From: Sphingobacteriales bacterium
Lineage (GTDB): Bacteria; Bacteroidota; Bacteroidia; Chitinophagales; Chitinophagaceae
DNA length: 64,000 bases
NCBI GenBank assembly: GCA_004144175.1
Contig: SEFT01000004.1
Location: 124,001-188,000, forward strand
Direction: 5' to 3'
Each line of letters begins with the position of its first letter. Position 1 is the first letter of the stretch. The position numbers and the translations under genes are program-made. Shown here one piece after another: positions 12,811 to 42,610 of this stretch. Below the pieces are notes generated by a model that saw only the letters and a list, made by a program, of their open reading frames with translations, had not been told where the DNA came from and did not search any database.

Positions 12811-14268
12811 ATGATTGAAAATGAATACCATCTGCTGGTAGATGCAATTAGGGACCATGCAGTTTTCATGATAGACACTAAAGGGTATATAACAACCTGG
12901 AATTCTGCAGCAGAGCGACTCAAAGGGTATACTAAGGAGGAGGCTATTGGTCAACACTTTCGTATGCTCTTTATACCTGAGGACCGTAATGGCAAGCCCG
13001 AATACGAGATGCAGGAGTCGCTTTCGGTTGGAAAGTTTGAAGAGGAATGGTGGCGCATGAGAAAAAACGGAAGCAAGTTTTGGGCTCACGTAGTGTTGTC
13101 GCCAGTATACGACGTTGACAAGAAGCATGTGGGATTTGCAAAGCTAACAAGTGACAGAACTCAGCAAAAGCGTAGTGATGAACTCAACAGGTTCCTCATG
13201 AATTCGGTGGCTGATTATGCAATTTTCTTACTGGATAAGGAAGGAAAGATAGTAAGCTGGAGTAAAGCAGCAGAAGCCATAATTGGCTACGTAGAAACGG
13301 AGATAGTCGGTAAGCCTTTTTCAATTTTGCATACAACAGAAGACATCAACGCTGGTGTGCCCGAACAGGAGTTAAATGAGGCATGTGAAAACGGCACTTG
13401 CGAGGGGGAAGGGTGGAGAGTTGCCAAGGGTGGGGGAATATTCTGGTCGAGCTTTGTGATAACGCCTTTGCATGATGAGACTGGATTCGTTGCACTAACT
13501 TGGGGCCTTACAAGCAAAAAGGAGTTGGAGCAAGTAACTAAGGCCAATGCGATACTAAATGGCTCAAATAAAGAACTTGAGCGATTTGCTTACGTCGCCA
13601 GCCACGATCTGAAAGAGCCGGTAAGAAAAATCTCAGTTTATTGTAGCAGGCTTACCGCTGATAGCGATATACAAAAGGGCTACATTGACAGCATCATGGA
13701 ATCCTGTCGCCGGATACAAACGCTCATTGACAATGTGCTCAGGTACTCCACAATGACCAAGCGCCAGCCTTTCGAGCGTGTCAATCTTAACGATATTCTG
13801 AGCAGGGTGCTAGACTCACTAGGAGAGCTTCTGCAGAAAAGGAACGCTCTTGTGCGCTGTGACAAGTTACCTACAGCTTCTGTCATACCCGTACAGATGG
13901 AACAGCTATTTCAGAATCTGGTCACAAATGCAGTTAAGTTTTGCTGCAATAATAACAGGAGCCCGGAAGTGCATATTACCAGTCATGTATTGGGCAAAGA
14001 AAAGATAGATCAGCATCAACTTGAAAAGCTCTGGCCCGCTGAGGAATATTTGGTCCTTAGTGTAAAGGACAACGGCATTGGTTTTGATCAGAGGTACGCA
14101 ACAAATATCTTTGATTTGTTTCGTAGACTGCACGGGCAGGATAGATACGAAGGCACCGGACTTGGCTTGTCCATCTGCAAAAAAGTAGCAGAGAATCATG
14201 GTGGCACTATAAGCGCGGTGTCAGAAAATGGTTCGGGTGCAGAGTTTATCATTACGCTGCCGGCCTAA
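12811..14268 (+). CDS. PAS-PAS sensor histidine kinase
   Basis: 485 residues. PAS 1 spans about 5-120 (FMIDTKGYITTWNSAAERLK, GYTKEEAIGQHF, MRKNGSKFWAHVV) and PAS 2 about 130-245 (IFLLDKEGKIVSWSKAAEAI, GYVETEIVGK, VAKGGGIFWSSFVITPL). The H-box is YVASHDLKEPVRKI near residue 264; the N-box is NLVTNAVKFC; G1 is KDNGIGFD; then DLFRRLH and GTGLGLSICKKVAENHGG. All motifs are intact. No membrane helices, so it is a soluble sensor, probably for redox or light-type ligands. No adjacent receiver gene; the receiver at 16796 is the nearest candidate partner. Confidence 0.92.
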   Translation: MIENEYHLLVDAIRDHAVFMIDTKGYITTWNSAAERLKGYTKEEAIGQHFRMLFIPEDRNGKPEYEMQESLSVGKFEEEWWRMRKNGSKFWAHVVLSPVYDVDKKHVGFAKLTSDRTQQKRSDELNRFLMNSVADYAIFLLDKEGKIVSWSKAAEAIIGYVETEIVGKPFSILHTTEDINAGVPEQELNEACENGTCEGEGWRVAKGGGIFWSSFVITPLHDETGFVALTWGLTSKKELEQVTKANAILNGSNKELERFAYVASHDLKEPVRKISVYCSRLTADSDIQKGYIDSIMESCRRIQTLIDNVLRYSTMTKRQPFERVNLNDILSRVLDSLGELLQKRNALVRCDKLPTASVIPVQMEQLFQNLVTNAVKFCCNNNRSPEVHITSHVLGKEKIDQHQLEKLWPAEEYLVLSVKDNGIGFDQRYATNIFDLFRRLHGQDRYEGTGLGLSICKKVAENHGGTISAVSENGSGAEFIITLPA

Positions 14269-14330
14269 GTATGGATGCATGGTGCCGAAGTAATGAGGAT
14301 CTGTATGACAAGCTAATATATGCCTCAAAA

Positions 14331-14567
14331 CTATTCAGTTATCTGGTGCTCGTGTATGGTTACATAGGTATAATAGCCATCATACCATTCCATCTCATTC
14401 CTTTTGGTTAAAGTACTTGAGCTATACTCGTCACTGCTGTTCAATTCATTTACTTTCTGCAAGGCTTTTTCTTGTGCTTTATCCAGTTTCGTATAATAGC
14501 CCAAGTCGCCTACAGGCAGATCTCTATGTTGTTCAGTATGCCTGAATATCACTTGATATATCTTCAT
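14331..14567 (-). CDS. Hypothetical small protein
   Basis: 78 residues (MKIYQVIFRHTEQHRDLPVG...). Rich in Tyr, Glu and Lys with an amphipathic central helix (KAQEKALQKVNEL) and a Tyr-rich strand (WYDGYYTYVTIHEH). It looks like a genuine small folded protein, but I recognise no family. Convergent with the kinase gene at 12811. Confidence 0.55.
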   Translation of the reverse strand: MKIYQVIFRHTEQHRDLPVGDLGYYTKLDKAQEKALQKVNELNSSDEYSSSTLTKRNEMEWYDGYYTYVTIHEHQITE

Positions 14568-14897
14568 CTTTCCAGTTTGTGTCTAGTTAGCTTATACAAG
14601 TTTTTGTACAAAACTAGTGCCCTTAACTGTTGGCAAAGTGACTGGTCTTGGAATACATATTGTTATACACTTACAGAAAAACGGTCGTTGATCTTGTTTG
14701 CCCTTGGTTATTTACAAAGGCAGCTAATCTATACAGGTTTCAATGGAACAAATTGCTACCTAGGTTCTAAGGGTTGGCAAAGTATTTCAGTGTATTTGGC
14801 AGTAGTAGAGTACGGCGGCTTATTCAATCTGACTGTCAGCCACCACTGTAAGGAACTGTATGTGAATTGCTGCTGTAAGATGTATCTGTTACCAAAG
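14568..14897. other. Intergenic stretch, nothing recognised
   Basis: About 330 bp between two reverse-strand small genes; I see no gene, strong hairpin or promoter match. Confidence 0.4.
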
Positions 14898-15131
14898 CTA
14901 CTCGTCAATATAGAGCGTTATATGTGGCTTATTACCCGCCAGAACTGAAATTACCATTCCATCATGCAGGCCAAGGCAGCTAAAGCCTTGGCTTACGGGT
15001 ATTGCCTTAACCGGCTGAAGGATATAGCTGGCAGGAATAAACCCCTCAATCCTCTTCACATCTTTTAAAAGAAAGAATCTATATCCTTGCATAGACAATT
15101 CCATGTGCCTTTCTTTTGTTAATCTTTCCAT
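14898..15131 (-). CDS. Hypothetical small protein
   Basis: 77 residues from the second of two adjacent ATG codons (MERLTKERHMELSMQGYRFF). Balanced composition with alternating hydrophobics (GMVISVLAGNKPHITLYID) suggests a small beta-rich fold. No family recognised. It and the gene at 14331 are similar in length and orientation but not in sequence. Confidence 0.45.
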   Translation of the reverse strand: MERLTKERHMELSMQGYRFFLLKDVKRIEGFIPASYILQPVKAIPVSQGFSCLGLHDGMVISVLAGNKPHITLYIDE

Positions 15132-15134
15132 CAA

Positions 15135-15478
15135 TATATTGTCAATGCCCTTTATTGCCGGAACATGGCAAGGGACTGACGTTGTATAATATCTGTGATG
15201 CTTCGTTTAGTGAATGGCGTTAGAAGCGCTCCACTATCATTATTGTTCCTGTAAATGATGAACTAAGGCAGAAGCCTATTAAAAGAGATTTGCTGGAAAA
15301 CTTGGAATAGAAGTATGTCTTTCTGTGGCGAAGATACGCTTATGATATCAATTAAAGCAATCTAAAATGTGTATTCATTTATTGCCGAAAGGAAAATAAA
15401 AATAGTTTAGGTGCGATGGCTTGATTTTACTAAGTATTGGTTTTTAATATTAGTCATCGTAACAAATAAACCTTATCT
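15135..15478. other. Intergenic stretch, nothing recognised
   Basis: About 340 bp between divergent small ORFs; no gene or strong element seen. Confidence 0.4.
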
Positions 15479-15709
15479 ATGAAATATAATATTCGCGCAC
15501 TGGAGCTTAGTATCTTCAAAATAAGTTTTCAAAATAACATAGTTTCTTCCTGTGTCAAGATGCTTAGCGTCTATGCACTAGGCCGAAAGAATTGGTTTAT
15601 TCAAGATAACGGAAATTTGTTGTTTGCCTATATCGGTGCTGCCACAGCCCAGGAAGCGCTTAAGCTGGTCGGTATATATCACCATAATTATGGAAAGGGT
15701 ACGAAGTAA
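15479..15709 (+). CDS. Hypothetical small protein
   Basis: 76 residues. The second half (YALGRKNWFIQDNGNLLFAY, then a helix AATAQEALKLVGIYHHNYG) reads like a short folded domain; the first half is less convincing. No family recognised and no neighbours in the same direction close by. Confidence 0.4.
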   Translation: MKYNIRALELSIFKISFQNNIVSSCVKMLSVYALGRKNWFIQDNGNLLFAYIGAATAQEALKLVGIYHHNYGKGTK

Positions 15710-16316
15710 TGTTGAAACATACTGAGCATCGTCTGTTGCAAACATCTTTATTGCGTCTTTACTCTATAATTCCGGCTGCTGTCCTTACGAATATAGTTTT
15801 GAAAGAACATTTCGAAACATAGGTCAGACTTCTTACCAATGAGCAAGTACTGATACAAGTTAACAGCACCCAACTAGCATAATTATATGCCTTACATAGC
15901 CGTATTATAGCCCTTTGTTCTCCTGATTGTAAATCTCCGGTCGCCACTTTCTACCTCGTCTACCATTACAATAACTCTTAACTGCCTTTTTCTTATAAAC
16001 CATCATAATACGTCAAGATAGCCTCCAAAGAGTATTCAAAAACTTCTGTATCAAAATGCATACTAGTGTATCGTTAAGCGCTATTGCAACCAAGAGTAGC
16101 ATCTCAAATGCACGCTATAGACAAGACCATTTGCTGACGTATGTGGAGAGTGGCTTTTGATATCAGATGCTATTGTTTTATACAATAAAAACTATGTTTT
16201 GTATCATTCCCACTATTTGGAAGAAAAGGCTGGTGGAGGTATAACCTTTGAACATTAGATATGAGAAATTGAGAATAGCGATAATCTTTTTAGATTGTCG
16301 ATTAGTTAAAGCAGGA
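15710..16316. other. Gene-free stretch before the small RNA element
   Basis: About 600 bp with no credible gene. A near-promoter (TTG, about 16 nt, then TATGTTTTG) lies around 16170-16201 and could start a transcript ending at 16399. A short hairpin AATCTTTTTAGATT lies near 16283. Confidence 0.4.
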
Positions 16317-16399
16317 TAAAGCGCAGGCGTAATTGTAGCTGTAAAGGGTGCTTGGCCGTATCCTATCTCTCGGTTGCTAACCTGCGCTTTACATTTTTT
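16317..16399 (+). ncRNA. Structured small RNA element, copy 1
   Basis: An 11-bp terminal stem TAAAGCGCAGG (16317-16327) / CCTGCGCTTTA (16381-16391) is followed by six T residues, so it is itself an intrinsic terminator. Inside it lies an asymmetric bulge, a second stem GTAATTG pairing with CGGTTGC (G-T pairs allowed), and a hairpin GGGTGC-TTGGCC-GTATCC at 16346-16363. The same architecture with sequence changes that keep pairing occurs at 41318-41397. It lacks an open frame. The Rfam family, if any, is unknown to me; I considered 4.5S and 6S RNA but the diagnostic sequences are absent. Confidence 0.6.
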
Positions 16400-16543
16400 A
16401 CGATAATTCTTTAGTCAACACGAAAGTTCGATTGCAAATGCCGGCCCCTTTAGCCCTATCAATAGCCTGTTAATGTCTGGAAAAATCTGTTGCAAAAGCA
16501 ATCAAAGGCATGAATTTGCAGGTTTGTAAGAGATTTTCATCCT

Positions 16544-16747
16544 ATGCCGCACCCTGAGTTACCGCTTAAACAAAAAGAAGACCATGCACATCAGCGTGGC
16601 GGCGAAGATTATGAGGTTGACTATTTATCCCACCTTTTAAGCGTTTCTCCGTCACTCGTAACAGAAGCAATAGCTTCAGCCGGAACTAACAGGCACAAGG
16701 TGAAAGAATATATCAGGAAAGCTCGACAAAGAGATGGAAAACGATAG
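16544..16747 (+). CDS. DUF3606 protein
   Basis: 67 residues. The C-terminal about 50 residues (YEVDYLSHLLSVSPSLVTEA, IASAGTNRHKVKEYI) follow the DUF3606 pattern, a small helical domain in which a YEV..W/L segment is followed by a helix-turn-helix-like unit. Function is unknown. It lies 145 bp after RNA copy 1 and 48 bp before the receiver protein on the same strand, so it may form a transcript with it. Confidence 0.75.
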   Translation: MPHPELPLKQKEDHAHQRGGEDYEVDYLSHLLSVSPSLVTEAIASAGTNRHKVKEYIRKARQRDGKR

Positions 16748-16795
16748 CTTCATTCGTAGGTACTGATGAGTATTAGCTTAATAAAAAGAACAACC

Positions 16796-17221
16796 ATGAA
16801 CAAATCAGGACCGATAATAATCATAGAAGATGATATTGATGACCAGGAACTACTCGAAGAAGTATTTGGGAACCTCCGTTATAGAAACCAGGTCATTTAT
16901 TTTGTAGATGCAAATGAGGCATTGCAGTACCTAAACAGGAATGACACGCATCCATTTCTTATCCTGTCCGACCTCAACCTCCCTAAGATGAATGGGTTTG
17001 AACTGCGAAATGAGATATTTAGAAATTTGCAACTTCAGAACAAGTGTATTCCCTACCTATTCTTTACCTCAGGCGCTGATCGAAAAAGTGTGACAGATGC
17101 CTATGGACTATCGGTGCAAGGCTTTTTCATTAAACCAGCTTCTATACATGCCCTTCAAGATACGATAAGAAAGATTGTAGAGTACTGGCAGGAATGTATG
17201 GCTCCAAGTCAGTTTGAATAG
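16796..17221 (+). CDS. Single-domain response regulator (Rcp1-like receiver)
   Basis: 141 residues from the ATG at 16796 (MNKSGPIIIIEDDIDDQELL); an upstream in-frame ATG at 16766 adds 10 residues with no support. One receiver domain: acidic pair D12/D13, phospho-acceptor D59 (LILSDLNLPKMNG), Thr/Ser in FFTSGA, and the conserved Lys in FIKPAS (about 113). There is no output domain. Such Rcp1-type receivers work with PAS/phytochrome-type kinases, and three orphan kinases lie within 12 kb (5546, 7661, 12811), making it a likely common partner; this is inference. Confidence 0.9.
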   Translation: MNKSGPIIIIEDDIDDQELLEEVFGNLRYRNQVIYFVDANEALQYLNRNDTHPFLILSDLNLPKMNGFELRNEIFRNLQLQNKCIPYLFFTSGADRKSVTDAYGLSVQGFFIKPASIHALQDTIRKIVEYWQECMAPSQFE

Positions 17222-38360: not shown

Positions 38361-40868
38361 TTACCCTTCATTCACATACACCCGCTTCACACGCTGGGAT
38401 ACGCCTGTCATTATCTCGTAAGGGATGGTGCCGGCCCATGTGGCTAGTTGGGTTACCGGTAGCTCGGGGCTAAAGACGATCACCTCATCGCCTTCGGTAG
38501 CCTCGGGTATGTCCGTTACATCTACCATGCACATATCCATACATACTACGCCCGTTATCTTTGCCGGCTTGCCATGTATCAGCACATGTGCCTTGCCATT
38601 ACCAAGGCTGCGCGGGTAGCCGTCGGCATAGCCAATGCTGATGGTGGCTATACGCATTTTTTCGTTAGCCATCGCTCTACGGCTATAGCCTATCGTTTCT
38701 CCTTGGGGTATCTCTTTTATCTGTGCAATAGTAGTTTTGAGCGTGCCAACCTGCATCAGCTTCTGCTGCATATCGCCCGAGCTATCTATGCCGTAGAGGC
38801 CAAGGCCCAGCCTTATCATATCGTAGTGCAGCTTCGGGTGGCGCTTGATGGCCGCCGAGTTGCAAAGGTGCAGTATGGGCTTATGCGGCAACTGATCCAT
38901 GATGCGCTCGCTCATATCGTCGAACAATGCCGCCTGCGCATTGGTAAACTCATCCTGCGCGGCATCGTCGCTAGCAGCCAGGTGGCTGAAGATGCTGGCA
39001 ATATGCACGTAGGGATTGTATTGCAAATCTTCCAGTAGTTCATCTATTTCAAACCGCTGGAAGCCCAGGCGGTGCATACCCGTATCCAGCTTTATGTGTA
39101 CGGGATAGCCACGTACTTCAAGCGTCTGCGCTATGCCTGTAAATGCCTGTAGCGACCGCAGGTTGAATATCTCGGGCTCCAGCTTCCAGGCTATCATCCG
39201 GTCAAACGATTCCATGTCTGGGCTCATCACCATGATGGGCATCGTGATACCCGCCTTGCGCAGGGCGATGCCTTCATCGGTATAGGCGACCGCCAGGTAG
39301 TCTACACCCGCATATTGCAGCAGGTTGGCTATCTCAAAGCTGCCCGCTCCGTATGAGAACGCCTTTACCATAGCCATGGTCTTTACATGCGGTTGCAGGC
39401 TTTTCCTGAATACATTGAGGTTGCTGGTAATGGCCGATAGGTCGATAGAAAGTACCGTCTGGTGTATCTTCTGCTCCAACAGCATGCCTATCTTCTCGAA
39501 GGTAAAATTACGTGCCCCCTTCAGCAGTATAGCTTCCTTATCGAAGGTGATCAGGTGTATCTTCTTCAGGAACTCCTCGGTCGATTTAAAGAAGATGCTG
39601 CGTAGCTTTTTATGCGTCCTGAAGGCCGATTTGTGCTTGTACAATGCCGGCCCGATGCCGATAAACCTGTATATATTCTTCCGGCTCACCATTTCAGCTA
39701 CTTCTTCGTACAGCTCACCGTCCGACTTGGCTATCTGCAGCATATCCGACAGAATCACCGTATGGTTCTTGTGCTGCTTCTGCTGCTCCAGGAAATCGAG
39801 CGCTATCAGCAGCGATGTAATGTCGGAGTTGTAGCTATCATTGATGATCGTGCAGTCGTTAATGCCGTGCCTCAATTCCAGCCGCATCGATACGGGCTGC
39901 AAATGCCCCATACGCTCCTGTATCTTATCTGCACCCATTTGCAGCAATAGCATCACACACCAGCAGTGTATGGCATTCTCTATCGATGCAGGGTCGCTGA
40001 AAGGTATGGTGATACCGATCTGCTGCCCCTTATATAGCGCTTCAATTTTAGTATTCCCCGGTTGCTTGTCGATCTTCGTTATACGTAGGTCGCTGTCCGT
40101 ACGCTGGCTCCAGGTAAAGAGTTGTAGGTGCGGCGTACCGTCGGGGCTTTTAAATTGGTTGATGTATTGTATGATGCACTGGTTCAGCTCGGGGTAGTCC
40201 TTGCAATACACCAATTGTTTGGCATAGCGGAACAGGATCAGCTTCTCATTTATCTTCTGCCTTATATTGAGGAAGCCTTCACTGTGCGCCTCGCCAATGT
40301 TTGTAAACACGCCTATCTCCGGGTGTATCATTTTCTCCAGTTGCTCCATCTCGCCCGGCTGCGATATGCCTGCCTCAAAGATGCCCAGTGTATGCTGTGG
40401 CTCCAGCAGCCAAACCGATAGCGGTACACCTATCTGTGAGTTGTAGCTCTTTGGGCTGCGCACCGCTTTATAGTCTTCGCTCAGCAGCTGGTATAGCCAT
40501 TCCTTTACAATGGTCTTACCATTGCTGCCGGTAATGCCAATGATCGGTATCTTAAATTGCTTCCGATGCCCGGCGGCTATTTGCTGCAAGGCAGTGAGGG
40601 TATCTCTTACAGTAACAAAAGATGCATCAGGGTACGCCGAAGCATCCACAGGATTGCTTACCAGGAAATTTCTGATTCCTTTCTGGTAGGCGTCGGAGAT
40701 GAAGCTATGGCCATCCCGGCGTTGGGTTTTCAGCGCTACGAACAAGGCCGACGATGGTGTTGCTACCTTGCGTGTATCTATTACCAGTTCTCCTATAACT
40801 GTATCCGATCCTTCCTGTACCTGCCATTCGCCATGGCACCATTTAGCTATCTGCGATATGGTGGGCAT
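38361..40868 (-). CDS. murF-alr: Bifunctional MurF ligase - alanine racemase fusion
   Basis: 835 residues from the ATG at 40868 (MPTISQIAKWCHGEWQ); 40886 is also possible. The N-terminal half (about 1-455) is MurF, UDP-MurNAc-tripeptide:D-Ala-D-Ala ligase, with the ATP loop GITGSNGKT near residue 108, EAGISQPGEM and the NDSYNSD motif. The C-terminal half (about 465-835) is alanine racemase: PLP Lys in MVKAFSYGAG near 500, KLDTGMHRLGF, and the catalytic Tyr region GYADGYPRSLGNG near 743. One enzyme makes D-Ala and the other uses the D-Ala-D-Ala product. This fusion is typical of Bacteroidota. Cytoplasmic and presumably essential. Confidence 0.96.
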   Translation of the reverse strand: MPTISQIAKWCHGEWQVQEGSDTVIGELVIDTRKVATPSSALFVALKTQRRDGHSFISDAYQKGIRNFLVSNPVDASAYPDASFVTVRDTLTALQQIAAGHRKQFKIPIIGITGSNGKTIVKEWLYQLLSEDYKAVRSPKSYNSQIGVPLSVWLLEPQHTLGIFEAGISQPGEMEQLEKMIHPEIGVFTNIGEAHSEGFLNIRQKINEKLILFRYAKQLVYCKDYPELNQCIIQYINQFKSPDGTPHLQLFTWSQRTDSDLRITKIDKQPGNTKIEALYKGQQIGITIPFSDPASIENAIHCWCVMLLLQMGADKIQERMGHLQPVSMRLELRHGINDCTIINDSYNSDITSLLIALDFLEQQKQHKNHTVILSDMLQIAKSDGELYEEVAEMVSRKNIYRFIGIGPALYKHKSAFRTHKKLRSIFFKSTEEFLKKIHLITFDKEAILLKGARNFTFEKIGMLLEQKIHQTVLSIDLSAITSNLNVFRKSLQPHVKTMAMVKAFSYGAGSFEIANLLQYAGVDYLAVAYTDEGIALRKAGITMPIMVMSPDMESFDRMIAWKLEPEIFNLRSLQAFTGIAQTLEVRGYPVHIKLDTGMHRLGFQRFEIDELLEDLQYNPYVHIASIFSHLAASDDAAQDEFTNAQAALFDDMSERIMDQLPHKPILHLCNSAAIKRHPKLHYDMIRLGLGLYGIDSSGDMQQKLMQVGTLKTTIAQIKEIPQGETIGYSRRAMANEKMRIATISIGYADGYPRSLGNGKAHVLIHGKPAKITGVVCMDMCMVDVTDIPEATEGDEVIVFSPELPVTQLATWAGTIPYEIMTGVSQRVKRVYVNEG

Positions 40869-41109
40869 TGTGTCTGTTATTACCATTCCTATTGTGCTGA
40901 GATAAAGCAATTTCCGGCCGGAAAGTTACCAAGAAAACCAGCTATTCATGCCATAGATAACAATGAAGAATGAAAATGAAGGTGTATAAAAAAATTATTC
41001 AAAAAAACTTTTATAGCCGCTTAAACACCAAATCCTTGCCAGTGTTATAACATGCTATAAACCATGATATATGACCGTTAGTATTATATAGTTTTTTGCG
41101 ACTTCGTTC
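40869..41109. other. Gene-free A/T-rich stretch
   Basis: Between murF-alr (reverse) and the promoter at 41110. No coding signal or strong hairpin. Confidence 0.4.
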
Positions 41110-41140: not shown

Positions 41141-41317
41141 CTCACTCTTAAACAGAGCCTCAAGTATTAATATACTCCATCGTTATATTCAATATTTGGT
41201 CAAGTTTAAATAGTTATGCAGCATCTGCTGCAAAAGACATATTAGCGAGCCAATCCTGAGTTCTCGTAAACCGGCCATTAACAAATCACATCAGGGGAGA
41301 AAGCTTCTGCTTGCAAT

Positions 41318-41397
41318 AAAGCGCAGGCGTAGTTATCTGATGTGGGGTGCATGGCCGTACCTTGAGAGTCAATAGCTACTAACCTGCGCCCTTTTTT
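41318..41397 (+). ncRNA. Structured small RNA element, copy 2
   Basis: Terminal stem GCGCAGG (41321-41327) / CCTGCGC (41383-41389) followed by seven T residues (41392-41398), then a one-sided bulge, a second stem GTAGTTAT pairing with ATAGCTAC, and a hairpin with loop ATGGCC (41345-41362). Compared with copy 1 at 16317, the terminal stem is identical, the second stem keeps pairing while bases change (A-T to G-C, G-C to A-T), and the hairpin core GGGTGC-WTGGCC-GTAYC is kept. There is no open frame. It sits between murF-alr and the DUF4340 gene, both on the other strand. Confidence 0.62.
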
Positions 41398-41505
41398 TGC
41401 CCCCCGACTGTAACTTTCCAACCACTTTTTTACTACAGCTGTTTAGTACACATTCATGAATCGAGCCGTGCTATTTTATCTACGCTGTTGCTTATTATAG
41501 CTCAT

Positions 41506-41554: not shown

Positions 41555-42610
41555 CTATTTAGCGAGTTCCATCGCCTGTGGGTTGATCGTTTGCTGCACG
41601 GGATCCGCTTCAAAAAACTCATACCCTTTACGAAACAGCTTATCGAATGTAAAGTGCTGTATGAGCATTGTATCCCTGAAGTTATTCATCACCGCATATG
41701 AGCGGTCGGCATCAAAACCGTCCGGTATATTCTGACTAGGTATCGATTGGTTCTTACTACGCTGGTTCACCGCCATCCAGTAGATATCTATATGCTGCAC
41801 TTTACCTGTTACGCTTTCCACCTCTATGGCGGCACGCTTGGGCGCATTGCTTATCAGTGAGTCAAGTTTATGTGTTCCGTTCAGATAGCCCTCCGCGTAT
41901 ATTTCAGTAAAGAATCCCGCATATGCCTCTGCACGTCGTACGTTCACAGGCTTTCCTTTCATCAGCTCTTCGTGCGCCTTTACGTCTATCTTGCCACCAT
42001 TGTTTGTTAGTGTAAAAGAATTGAGCGGCTCGGTAGCATACTGCAGGTCTATTCTCTTTATTTGATCTCGGCTAAAGTTAAAGACCGTACGGTCGCGCCA
42101 TGTTTTTATATCGGTACTGTAGCGCGGAGTCAGATAACCCTCGAAGCCCGGTATCTGCACTACGTAAGGGCGCTTTGCCCCGTCCATCAGCATAAACGTA
42201 CCAAACTGGCCTACCTGCCCGCCTACATAAAATACTTTGATTTTCTTATTACCCTTACCATACAACTCTACCTTGATGCCGCTTGCAGCCAGCCCAGTAA
42301 TAGCATTATTATGCTGATTCTTTGGTGCAGGGTACTGCGCCTGCTGATCGTTAAGGGTACGCAGGAAACTGCTGACAACCCTGGGTATAGCGGGGTATCT
42401 GTCATTGATCACCCAGCCGCTATCGGTGCGCTTCAGGTCTACCTGCTGGCCCATCTTATCGGCCATAAAGATATGCGTGATGCTGCCGGTATCTTTTATG
42501 GTAAAGTTTGAGTCGTCGCCGCTAAATGGGTCATTCTCCTTAAAGACAAAAAAGTACACACCTACGCCCAGTAATGCCAGCAACACTAAGTATATAACAG
42601 TCTTATTCAT
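41555..42610 (-). CDS. DUF4340 membrane-anchored protein of the gld operon
   Basis: 351 residues: an N-terminal membrane helix (VIYLVLLALLGVGVYFFVF), then a long periplasmic part. The DUF4340 features are a repeated beta pattern with DLKRTDSGWVINDRYPAIP and KVFYVGGQVGQFGTFMLMDG. Proteins of this family commonly follow the GldG-type auxiliary ABC component, and here it is 30 bp downstream of gldG. The role is unproved; it likely works with the GldF/GldG complex at the inner membrane. It is the last gene of the operon. Confidence 0.85.
   Translation of the reverse strand: MNKTVIYLVLLALLGVGVYFFVFKENDPFSGDDSNFTIKDTGSITHIFMADKMGQQVDLKRTDSGWVINDRYPAIPRVVSSFLRTLNDQQAQYPAPKNQHNNAITGLAASGIKVELYGKGNKKIKVFYVGGQVGQFGTFMLMDGAKRPYVVQIPGFEGYLTPRYSTDIKTWRDRTVFNFSRDQIKRIDLQYATEPLNSFTLTNNGGKIDVKAHEELMKGKPVNVRRAEAYAGFFTEIYAEGYLNGTHKLDSLISNAPKRAAIEVESVTGKVQHIDIYWMAVNQRSKNQSIPSQNIPDGFDADRSYAVMNNFRDTMLIQHFTFDKLFRKGYEFFEADPVQQTINPQAMELAK

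Follow-up and report, generated by a model that had tools for sequence, protein, structure and literature searches.

Two look-alike hairpins in the window, by which we mean the whole 64,000-nucleotide stretch of DNA that was analysed, were confirmed as real, and both are part of a family of folded RNAs that is found in many families of Bacteroidota and is absent from Rfam 15. Members of this family are built from covarying helices in which two partner strands compete for one middle strand, and many of them lie as leaders before same-strand genes, with recurrent kinds of neighbour. We consider it slightly better than an even bet (probability of about 0.5) that the family works as rod-versus-terminator attenuator leaders that operate by strand exchange. 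Bacteroidota are a phylum known for the breakdown of polysaccharides, and such leaders would give SusC-type receptors and regulator genes a further layer of control. They would also provide testable switch sites in many species, together with covariance models for annotating them.

A sequence-only reading had placed the two copies at 16317-16399 (copy 1) and at about 41318-41398 (copy 2), both on the forward strand, and these places proved to be right. As that reading also held, the copies have in common the P1 stem GCGCAGG/CCTGCGC, a T tract after it and the P3 hairpin GGTGC-WTGGCC-GTAYC (Table 1). Their second stem is GTAATTG/CGGTTGC in copy 1 and GTAGTTAT/ATAGCTAC in copy 2; the compensation that had been proposed for it is there, and consists of two double changes (A-T to G-C and G-C to A-T) and two one-sided changes. 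The two places were said to be unlike outside the element, and alignment with MAFFT indeed gave a common core with mostly dissimilar flanks. Both cores fold better than their dinucleotide shuffles (z of -3.88 and -4.40), with none of 200 shuffles reaching as low an energy for either core. The 4.34-Mb genome has three occurrences of the 14-base loop pattern GGTGCNTGGCCGTA, always on the forward strand, and none of its reversed control. A model of eight sequences that contains copy 2 and not copy 1 matches copy 2 with E=2.6e-21 and copy 1 with E=4.1e-7. The element as first described corresponds to the 3' half of the unit; the unit is about twice as long, and its 5' arm and its two competing folds had been overlooked, as had its place before a same-strand gene in most order-level relatives. 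In RNA letters, the stem of the P3 hairpin of copy 2 is GGUGC/GUACC, and one G-U pair in it is identical in all eight aligned sequences.

Table 1. Features of copies 1 and 2 and of their surroundings, in positions of the window
Feature	Position	Strand	Basis
Copy 1, arm-less member: terminator hairpin with P3	16317-16399	+	R1, R2, fold; T tract 16394-16399
Copy 1, local hairpin at the place of the 5' arm of other members	16279-16300	+	MFE of 16255-16399
Copy 1, P1 strands	16321-16327/16381-16387	+
Copy 1, second stem	16329-16335/16371-16377	+
Copy 1, P3 hairpin	16347-16363	+
Response regulator gene downstream of copy 1	16766-17221	+	Pfam Response_reg, E=9.2e-14
MurF-alanine racemase fusion, divergent, upstream of copy 2	38361-40910	-
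Copy 2, complete RNA element (5' arm, hairpin H region, core, terminator)	41250-41398	+	model matches, fold
Copy 2, gamma strand of 5' arm	41257-41266	+	MFE: 41257-41259 and 41261-41266 pair with 41363-41371
Copy 2, alpha strand CGGCCAT	41272-41278	+	MFE: pairs with hairpin-loop ATGGCCG, 41351-41357
Copy 2, beta strand TCACATCAGG	41286-41295	+	MFE: pairs with TCTGATGTGG, 41336-41345
Copy 2, H 5' strand	41303-41312	+	MFE: 41303-41306/41325-41328, 41308-41312/41319-41323
Copy 2, P1 5' strand GCGCAGG, the shared middle strand	41321-41327	+	letters, fold
Copy 2, second stem	41329-41336/41372-41379	+
Copy 2, P3 hairpin GGTGC-ATGGCC-GTACC	41346-41361	+	letters, fold
Copy 2, P1 3' strand CCTGCGC (terminator)	41383-41389	+	letters, fold
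Copy 2, T tract	41392-41398	+	letters
DUF4340 gene, convergent, downstream of copy 2	41555-42610	-

Copy 2 is matched over its whole length by two models: R2, a full-length model that contains it (41252-41396, E=4.9e-23), and R3, which was built from 48 order-level sequences and does not contain it (41251-41396, E=3.1e-9). The predicted fold of 41215-41400 is a rod, in which the 5' arm (41257-41295) pairs with the apical part of the element. When the arm is left out, the predicted fold becomes the terminator, and the H 5' strand and the terminator are predicted to compete for 41319-41328. Copy 2 is complete but adjoins no gene on its own strand, so it would act as a stand-alone RNA. In the two relatives from the genus that were examined (L091 and L144), a MurF-racemase homologue is again upstream, and a 109-aa gene then lies on the strand of the RNA.

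Copy 1 represents an arm-less form. It is matched by the core model R1 (E=4.1e-7) and by R2 (E=4.7e-6), and R3 does not match it at E<=1. Its predicted fold is the terminator, the arm is missing, and termination should be constitutive. A response regulator gene begins about 370 bases further on, on the same strand. R1 finds six places in the genome of the window, the weakest of which (E=0.03) is matched by R3 with E=1.5e-22. One of the six, copy 3 (L146), lies on the same contig about 71 kb before copy 1; it is also arm-less and stands about 30 bases before a same-strand response-regulator gene (E=1.3e-14). A copy of the order type on contig C32 (L190) precedes a further such gene (E=1.8e-17), so that three of the six places in this genome are before response-regulator genes. 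More generally, genes for PAS histidine kinases or response regulators were seen beside several copies in the genus (window positions 12811-17221, L131, L143, L146 and L190). We also observed the word TGGCAC upstream of copy 3, and words of the form TGGCAY...TTTTT 40-50 bases before the core of arm-less copies, found by script for L145:2998-3070, L084:1478-1550, L134:2991-3068 and L142:3045-3123 and by eye for L146:2989-3063. These words resemble what we take to be the consensus of sigma-54 promoters.

The family extends far beyond this genome. R1 found it in 24 of 394 genomes of the family at E<=0.1, with 19 places in ten genomes at E below 1e-6; R2 in 50 of 396 genomes of the order at E<=0.01, in 30 of 164 genera and with other families included; and R3 in 36 of 296 genomes of the phylum at E<=0.001, where the genome counts of these large searches are lower bounds because strict filters were used. 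The best R3 match in other families of the class has E=5.9e-28, and seven genomes of other classes gave matches of 4e-10 to 3e-13. A set of 20 genomes was chosen for their matches to earlier models; R3 recognises the family in 18 of these, at up to six places per genome, and the two exceptions, G094 and G203, carry the form of the genus. A scan of named genomes with the loop pattern gave five stretches, three with the element, in MAGs named Flavipsychrobacter, and two without it, in Massilia, where the 3' strand is missing. When one mismatch was allowed in 15 genomes of the genus, 23 places were found, six with the element (L077, L080, L084, L087, L089 and L091) and 17 without it. Two matches in the pattern search of the family (G131 and G141) were discarded, as the element is not present there. 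In viral contigs the loop pattern gave 59 stretches, none of which has the rest of the element within 90 bases before or 75 bases after, so we took them as chance, and a narrow pattern for the rod form matched no viral contig. One locus, L130:2866-3039 on the reverse strand, holds a tandem pair separated by 11 bases, of which the second copy is weak (R1 E=0.046).

The sequence-only reading, which took the copies for a conserved structured RNA ending in a terminator, was to be given up if no further homologues with covariation could be found. A covariance search of Bacteroidota genomes, which it had proposed, turned up homologues with covariation at the level of family, order and phylum; the objection therefore falls away, and the reading is supported. 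Its statement that the element is neither 4.5S nor 6S RNA also agrees with our scans, in that no family of Rfam 15 reaches its cut-off on it. With the gathering score, Rfam 15 matched only tRNA in the whole window. Laxer scans around copies 1 and 2 gave four matches, all under their cut-offs, and a scan at E<=1 of the loci of 22 relatives gave a single match of 32.2 bits, against a cut-off of 67, outside the element of that locus. In searches of open-licence literature we did not recognise the family, so it is possible that it has been described elsewhere.

Several copies per genome might suggest that these hairpins are mobile, i.e., REP or MITE-like sequences that have no function as RNA. Copies also occur on a plasmid of Rhizosphaericola mali (R3 E=9.2e-22) and on one of Chryseobacterium shandongense (R3 E=8.5e-24). 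However, copies in the same genome have diverged strongly and have nevertheless kept their folds, the orientation of order-level members relative to the next gene is fixed, and near-identical dispersed copies tied to a transposase were not found among the copies. A transposase domain occurs in at least two of 77 upstream and at least one of 76 downstream neighbours, among the 25 families listed for each side. We regard this explanation as highly improbable. In a search by DNA similarity, no phage record was returned, and plasmid records were returned for one query (two records) and not for another.

In one group of matches, to which copy 2 belongs, segments upstream are complementary to the loop of the hairpin and to both of its flanks. 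Together with delta and H, these segments define a rod of five helices (gamma, alpha, beta, delta and H), in which 90.9% of 1611 cells are paired across the 48 order-level RNAs. Double changes occur in 24 of the 34 pairs of the rod (260 cells), and none of 500 shuffles, which ignore the relatedness of the sequences, reaches either the pairing or the double-change measure; further pair types of the rod were reached by 45 of the 500. Pairing falls to 35-43% when the partner strand is slid. The three helices of the arm covary, namely gamma (90.5% paired, double changes in seven of eight pairs), alpha (96.7%, seven of seven) and beta (75.6%, six of seven). There is little variation in H (99.1% paired, double changes in three of seven pairs) or in delta (double changes in one of five).

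We also compared each arm with its own 3' partner and with swapped ones. For 12 nearer RNAs, the mean energies are -33.3 kcal/mol for own and -22.1 kcal/mol for swapped partners, and none of 100000 permutations, which again ignore relatedness, was as good. The own 3' partner is the best one for nine of the 12 (it is eighth for G156, sixth for G069a and second for G094a); viewed from the 3' side, the own arm is best for seven of the 12 (eighth for G042). An alignment-free version of the test was applied to 28 RNAs of class and phylum level that are not in the model, and gave -35.05 kcal/mol for own versus -18.61 kcal/mol for swapped partners, with none of 100000 permutations as good and the own partner best in 25 of the 28. 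Individual RNAs have matched changes of loop and arm, e.g., UUGGCU with AGCCAA (G069a) and UCCGAC with GUCGGA (G045).

These results bear on the suggestion that the RNA is a scaffold that binds a protein, or just an unregulated terminator conserved by chance. The sequence of P1 and P3 is indeed well conserved in near relatives, and copy 1 folds simply as a terminator; however, a plain terminator has no need for an upstream arm with three covarying helices. We consider this suggestion improbable. Kink-turn, hammerhead, retron, guide-RNA and tRNA-like readings were also considered and dropped, on judgement from the letters.

The terminator set (P0, P1, P2 and P3) has 89.6% of its cells paired in the same 48 RNAs, with P3 at 92.4% and P1 at 100%. 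P1 varies little (double changes in one of seven pairs). Double changes in the whole terminator set occur in 10 of 25 pairs, a level that 45 of 500 shuffles reached. The middle strand that pairs in H is the one that pairs in P1, and likewise for delta and P2. The middle strand can pair with either partner in 286 of 288 triplet cells, and it retains both partners in all six departures from its usual sequence. Two members from other classes, L246 and L247, have GGACGCG as their middle strand, with a matching partner strand on either side. Runs of six or more contiguous pairs are present on both sides in 27 of the 28 RNAs outside the model; the remaining one, L241, has five on the terminator side. 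Since gamma, alpha and beta can coexist with P1 and P2 as a pseudoknot, strict exclusion applies only to H versus P1 and to delta versus P2. A terminator and an alternative helix that use one strand, as in an attenuator, are thus found in this family; for copy 2 they are found in predicted folds.

It is important to note that the predicted energies are uneven between the two folds. The MFE of the full RNA contains H in all 48 cases (46 fully and two in part) and pairs of P1 in none, and when helix energies are summed, the rod comes out ahead in 43 of the 48 and the terminator set in five (L158, L172, L202, L204 and L212). In full-length members, whose MFE never includes P1 and in which the rod is mostly favoured, the terminator may therefore not form, which counts against the attenuator.

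We propose the following model. The 5' half, which is transcribed first, would form the long rod. At its tip, the rod holds the middle strand (typically GGCGUGGGC plus CUUAUU, and GCGCAGG in copy 2), which would then have an alternative partner on the 3' side; these two strands, with the U residues that follow, would make up an intrinsic terminator (P1 and P2). The two folds would be alternative working states, where the rod would permit read-through into the next gene and the terminator would yield a short RNA, i.e., termination would be regulated. The downstream gene might be turned off by a signal that loosens the rod, for which the conserved joining segments are a possible binding site. 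At many loci a divergent regulator of the Cro/C1 type, sometimes with a palindrome beside the promoter of the RNA, might set the amount of leader that is made.

In the wider family, the positions of neighbouring genes are consistent with a leader. Neighbours were called mechanically as the nearest ORF of at least 70 aa within 2.5 kb, and lay between 0 and about 1400 bases away. Among the 48 order-level loci of the alignment, 47 have their downstream ORF on the strand of the RNA and 36 have their upstream ORF on the other strand, counts for which there is no background rate. With no locus dropped, the downstream ORF at 66 order-level loci is on the same strand in 60, on the opposite strand in four and absent in two, again with no background rate. 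The class set has a same-strand downstream ORF in 28 of 31 loci, three of these loci being also among the 48. Near the genus of the window, the proportion is only seven of 15, and copy 2 is among the misses.

Downstream proteins carry sigma-70 region 4 (eight of 76), TonB plug (five), HEPN (four) and response regulator (four) domains. In the class set, a SusC-type receptor is encoded by the nearest downstream ORF in 13 of the 31 loci and by the second one in three more. Upstream proteins often have the domains HTH_26 (21 of 77) and HTH_3 (20 of 77) at E<=0.001; in the class set, which overlaps with the 77, HTH_3 was found in 11 and HTH_26 in 10 of 31 at the laxer E<=0.01. Several loci have a palindrome of their own between regulator and RNA, and 16 of 107 loci have palindromes above all of 20 shuffles, where about five would be expected; clear palindromes are a minority. 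The word TAnnTTTG, presumably the Bacteroidota promoter word, occurs 30-110 bases upstream of the RNA in 59 of 107 loci, a count without a control. Between the RNA and the start of SusC this word is absent in all of 20 loci, also without a control, and promoters for ECF sigma factors may still lie there. We dropped the idea of an anti-phage role, as PADLOC matched one of the 76 downstream proteins (DrmC) at E<=1e-5.

The diversity of these downstream genes is unusual for a leader with a single ligand, and thus counts against the attenuator leader as well. It also counts against a strict riboswitch, in which the joints GAAA (between gamma and alpha) and AAUUU (between alpha and beta), with the pseudoknot, would bind a small molecule and so select rod or terminator. 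The unpaired residues of these joints are invariant or nearly so (A14-A16 and T26-T27 of the first sequence of alignment A10), and the leader position and the two competing folds likewise speak for a riboswitch. However, the helices around the joints vary freely, and SusC, sigma factors, HEPN proteins, response regulators and unknown proteins suggest no obvious common pathway. We therefore think a strict riboswitch unlikely.

The strongest rival of the attenuator is a small RNA that acts in trans. According to this idea, the apical region (beta', the P3 loop alpha' and gamma') would be the seed that recognises target RNAs, the transcript would end at the terminator, and the 5' arm would mask the seed as an internal antisense; paralogues without an arm would then be active because they are unmasked, or would be titrated by a sibling's arm. 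The family is multi-copy, and copy 2, with no same-strand gene adjoining, fits this idea. Moreover, for six of ten arm-less copies the arm from the same genome comes first or second among 12, with energies (in kcal/mol) of -37.8 for copy 3, -41.9 for G094b, -38.1 for G203b, -31.9 for G188b, -31.3 for G069b and -28.4 for G000d. In copy 3, G094b, G203b and G069b this pairing is stronger than that of the arm in cis (-35.0, -32.8, -36.5 and -24.8, respectively), whereas in G188b and G000d it is weaker (-40.5 and -35.0 in cis). The other four copies, namely copy 1, G000e, G094c and G094d, rank the arm of their own genome 4, 4, 9 and 10 of 12. It should also be considered that like seeds are expected from shared descent alone, which may explain the good ranks. 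The pairing of 20 RNAs with the leader of their own SusC gene is scarcely better than with swapped ones (-56.2 versus -53.7; 185 of 20000 permutations), a slight effect, and the leader position at 47 of 48 order-level loci is unexpected for an RNA that acts purely in trans. On balance we doubt that this idea is correct, and we prefer the strand-exchange attenuator.

An attenuator of this kind has recognisable relatives. As in known attenuators and terminator-type riboswitch leaders, two pairings compete for one strand, one of them is an intrinsic terminator, and the element, at most loci of the wider family, precedes a same-strand gene. Unlike them, the present family has a rod of five helices that is mostly favoured thermodynamically, diverse downstream genes, a frequent divergent Cro/C1 regulator and no match in Rfam at cut-off. 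FopS and GibS of Bacteroides thetaiotaomicron are also multi-copy paralogous RNAs of Bacteroidota with a terminator and a link to SusC-type receptors, according to PMC11697453. In that account, FopS has a single-stranded 5' stretch and a terminator hairpin and is highly conserved within Bacteroidaceae; its structure is said to have been deposited in Rfam, of which release 15, whether or not it includes FopS, gave no match at cut-off to the present family. The present family differs from that description, since in complete members the 5' part is not a single-stranded seed as in FopS but a covarying arm paired with the apical region; in addition, some loci have the RNA next to a receptor gene.

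6S-Flavo (RF01685), Flavo-1 (RF01705) and Bacteroidales-1 (RF01693), with which the first reading had wished to see a comparison, are structured RNAs of Bacteroidota too (PMC2864571), and none of them was matched in our scans with all Rfam families. Rfp18 of Flavobacterium psychrophilum resembles the present family as a Flavobacterium RNA that is conserved beyond the species and has a strong predicted structure; its described targets are metalloproteases, and the comparison was made by description, not by sequence (PMC9723704). For RagAB of P. gingivalis, the text available from PMC11817032 shows no small RNA at ragA. A palindromic candidate from Bacteroidetes near TonB is also on record, namely HMP2_1032 (PMC8040213).

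The observations on neighbours and on arm-less copies could be combined into a more elaborate proposal, which is speculative and in our estimation rather unlikely. In this cassette, a dedicated small Cro/C1 repressor with its own operator would control the strand-exchange leader, which would in turn gate an operon for a surface receptor, a sigma factor or a response regulator, an arrangement that would be Bacteroidota-wide and yet locus-specific. In some genera, arm-less paralogues, one group of which has the sigma-54-like promoter words, might capture the arm of a full-length member in trans and so flip it between rod and terminator.

Some further features of the loci were observed in passing. 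Six loci (L191, L201, L207, L209, L211 and L217) have related same-strand proteins upstream of the RNA, and six upstream neighbours contain the excisionase-like domain HTH_17; with the two plasmid finds, these are hints of carriage on mobile elements. Downstream of the RNA, nine loci encode members of a family of small proteins of 71-95 aa (L178:1214-1468 and eight homologues), and three of the nine, scanned singly, had no Pfam match above cut-off. Finally, in L220, L221, L223 and L241 there is a second hairpin, with CCAAACTA in its loop, after the RNA and about 60 bases before the start of SusC, which is possibly a translational element.
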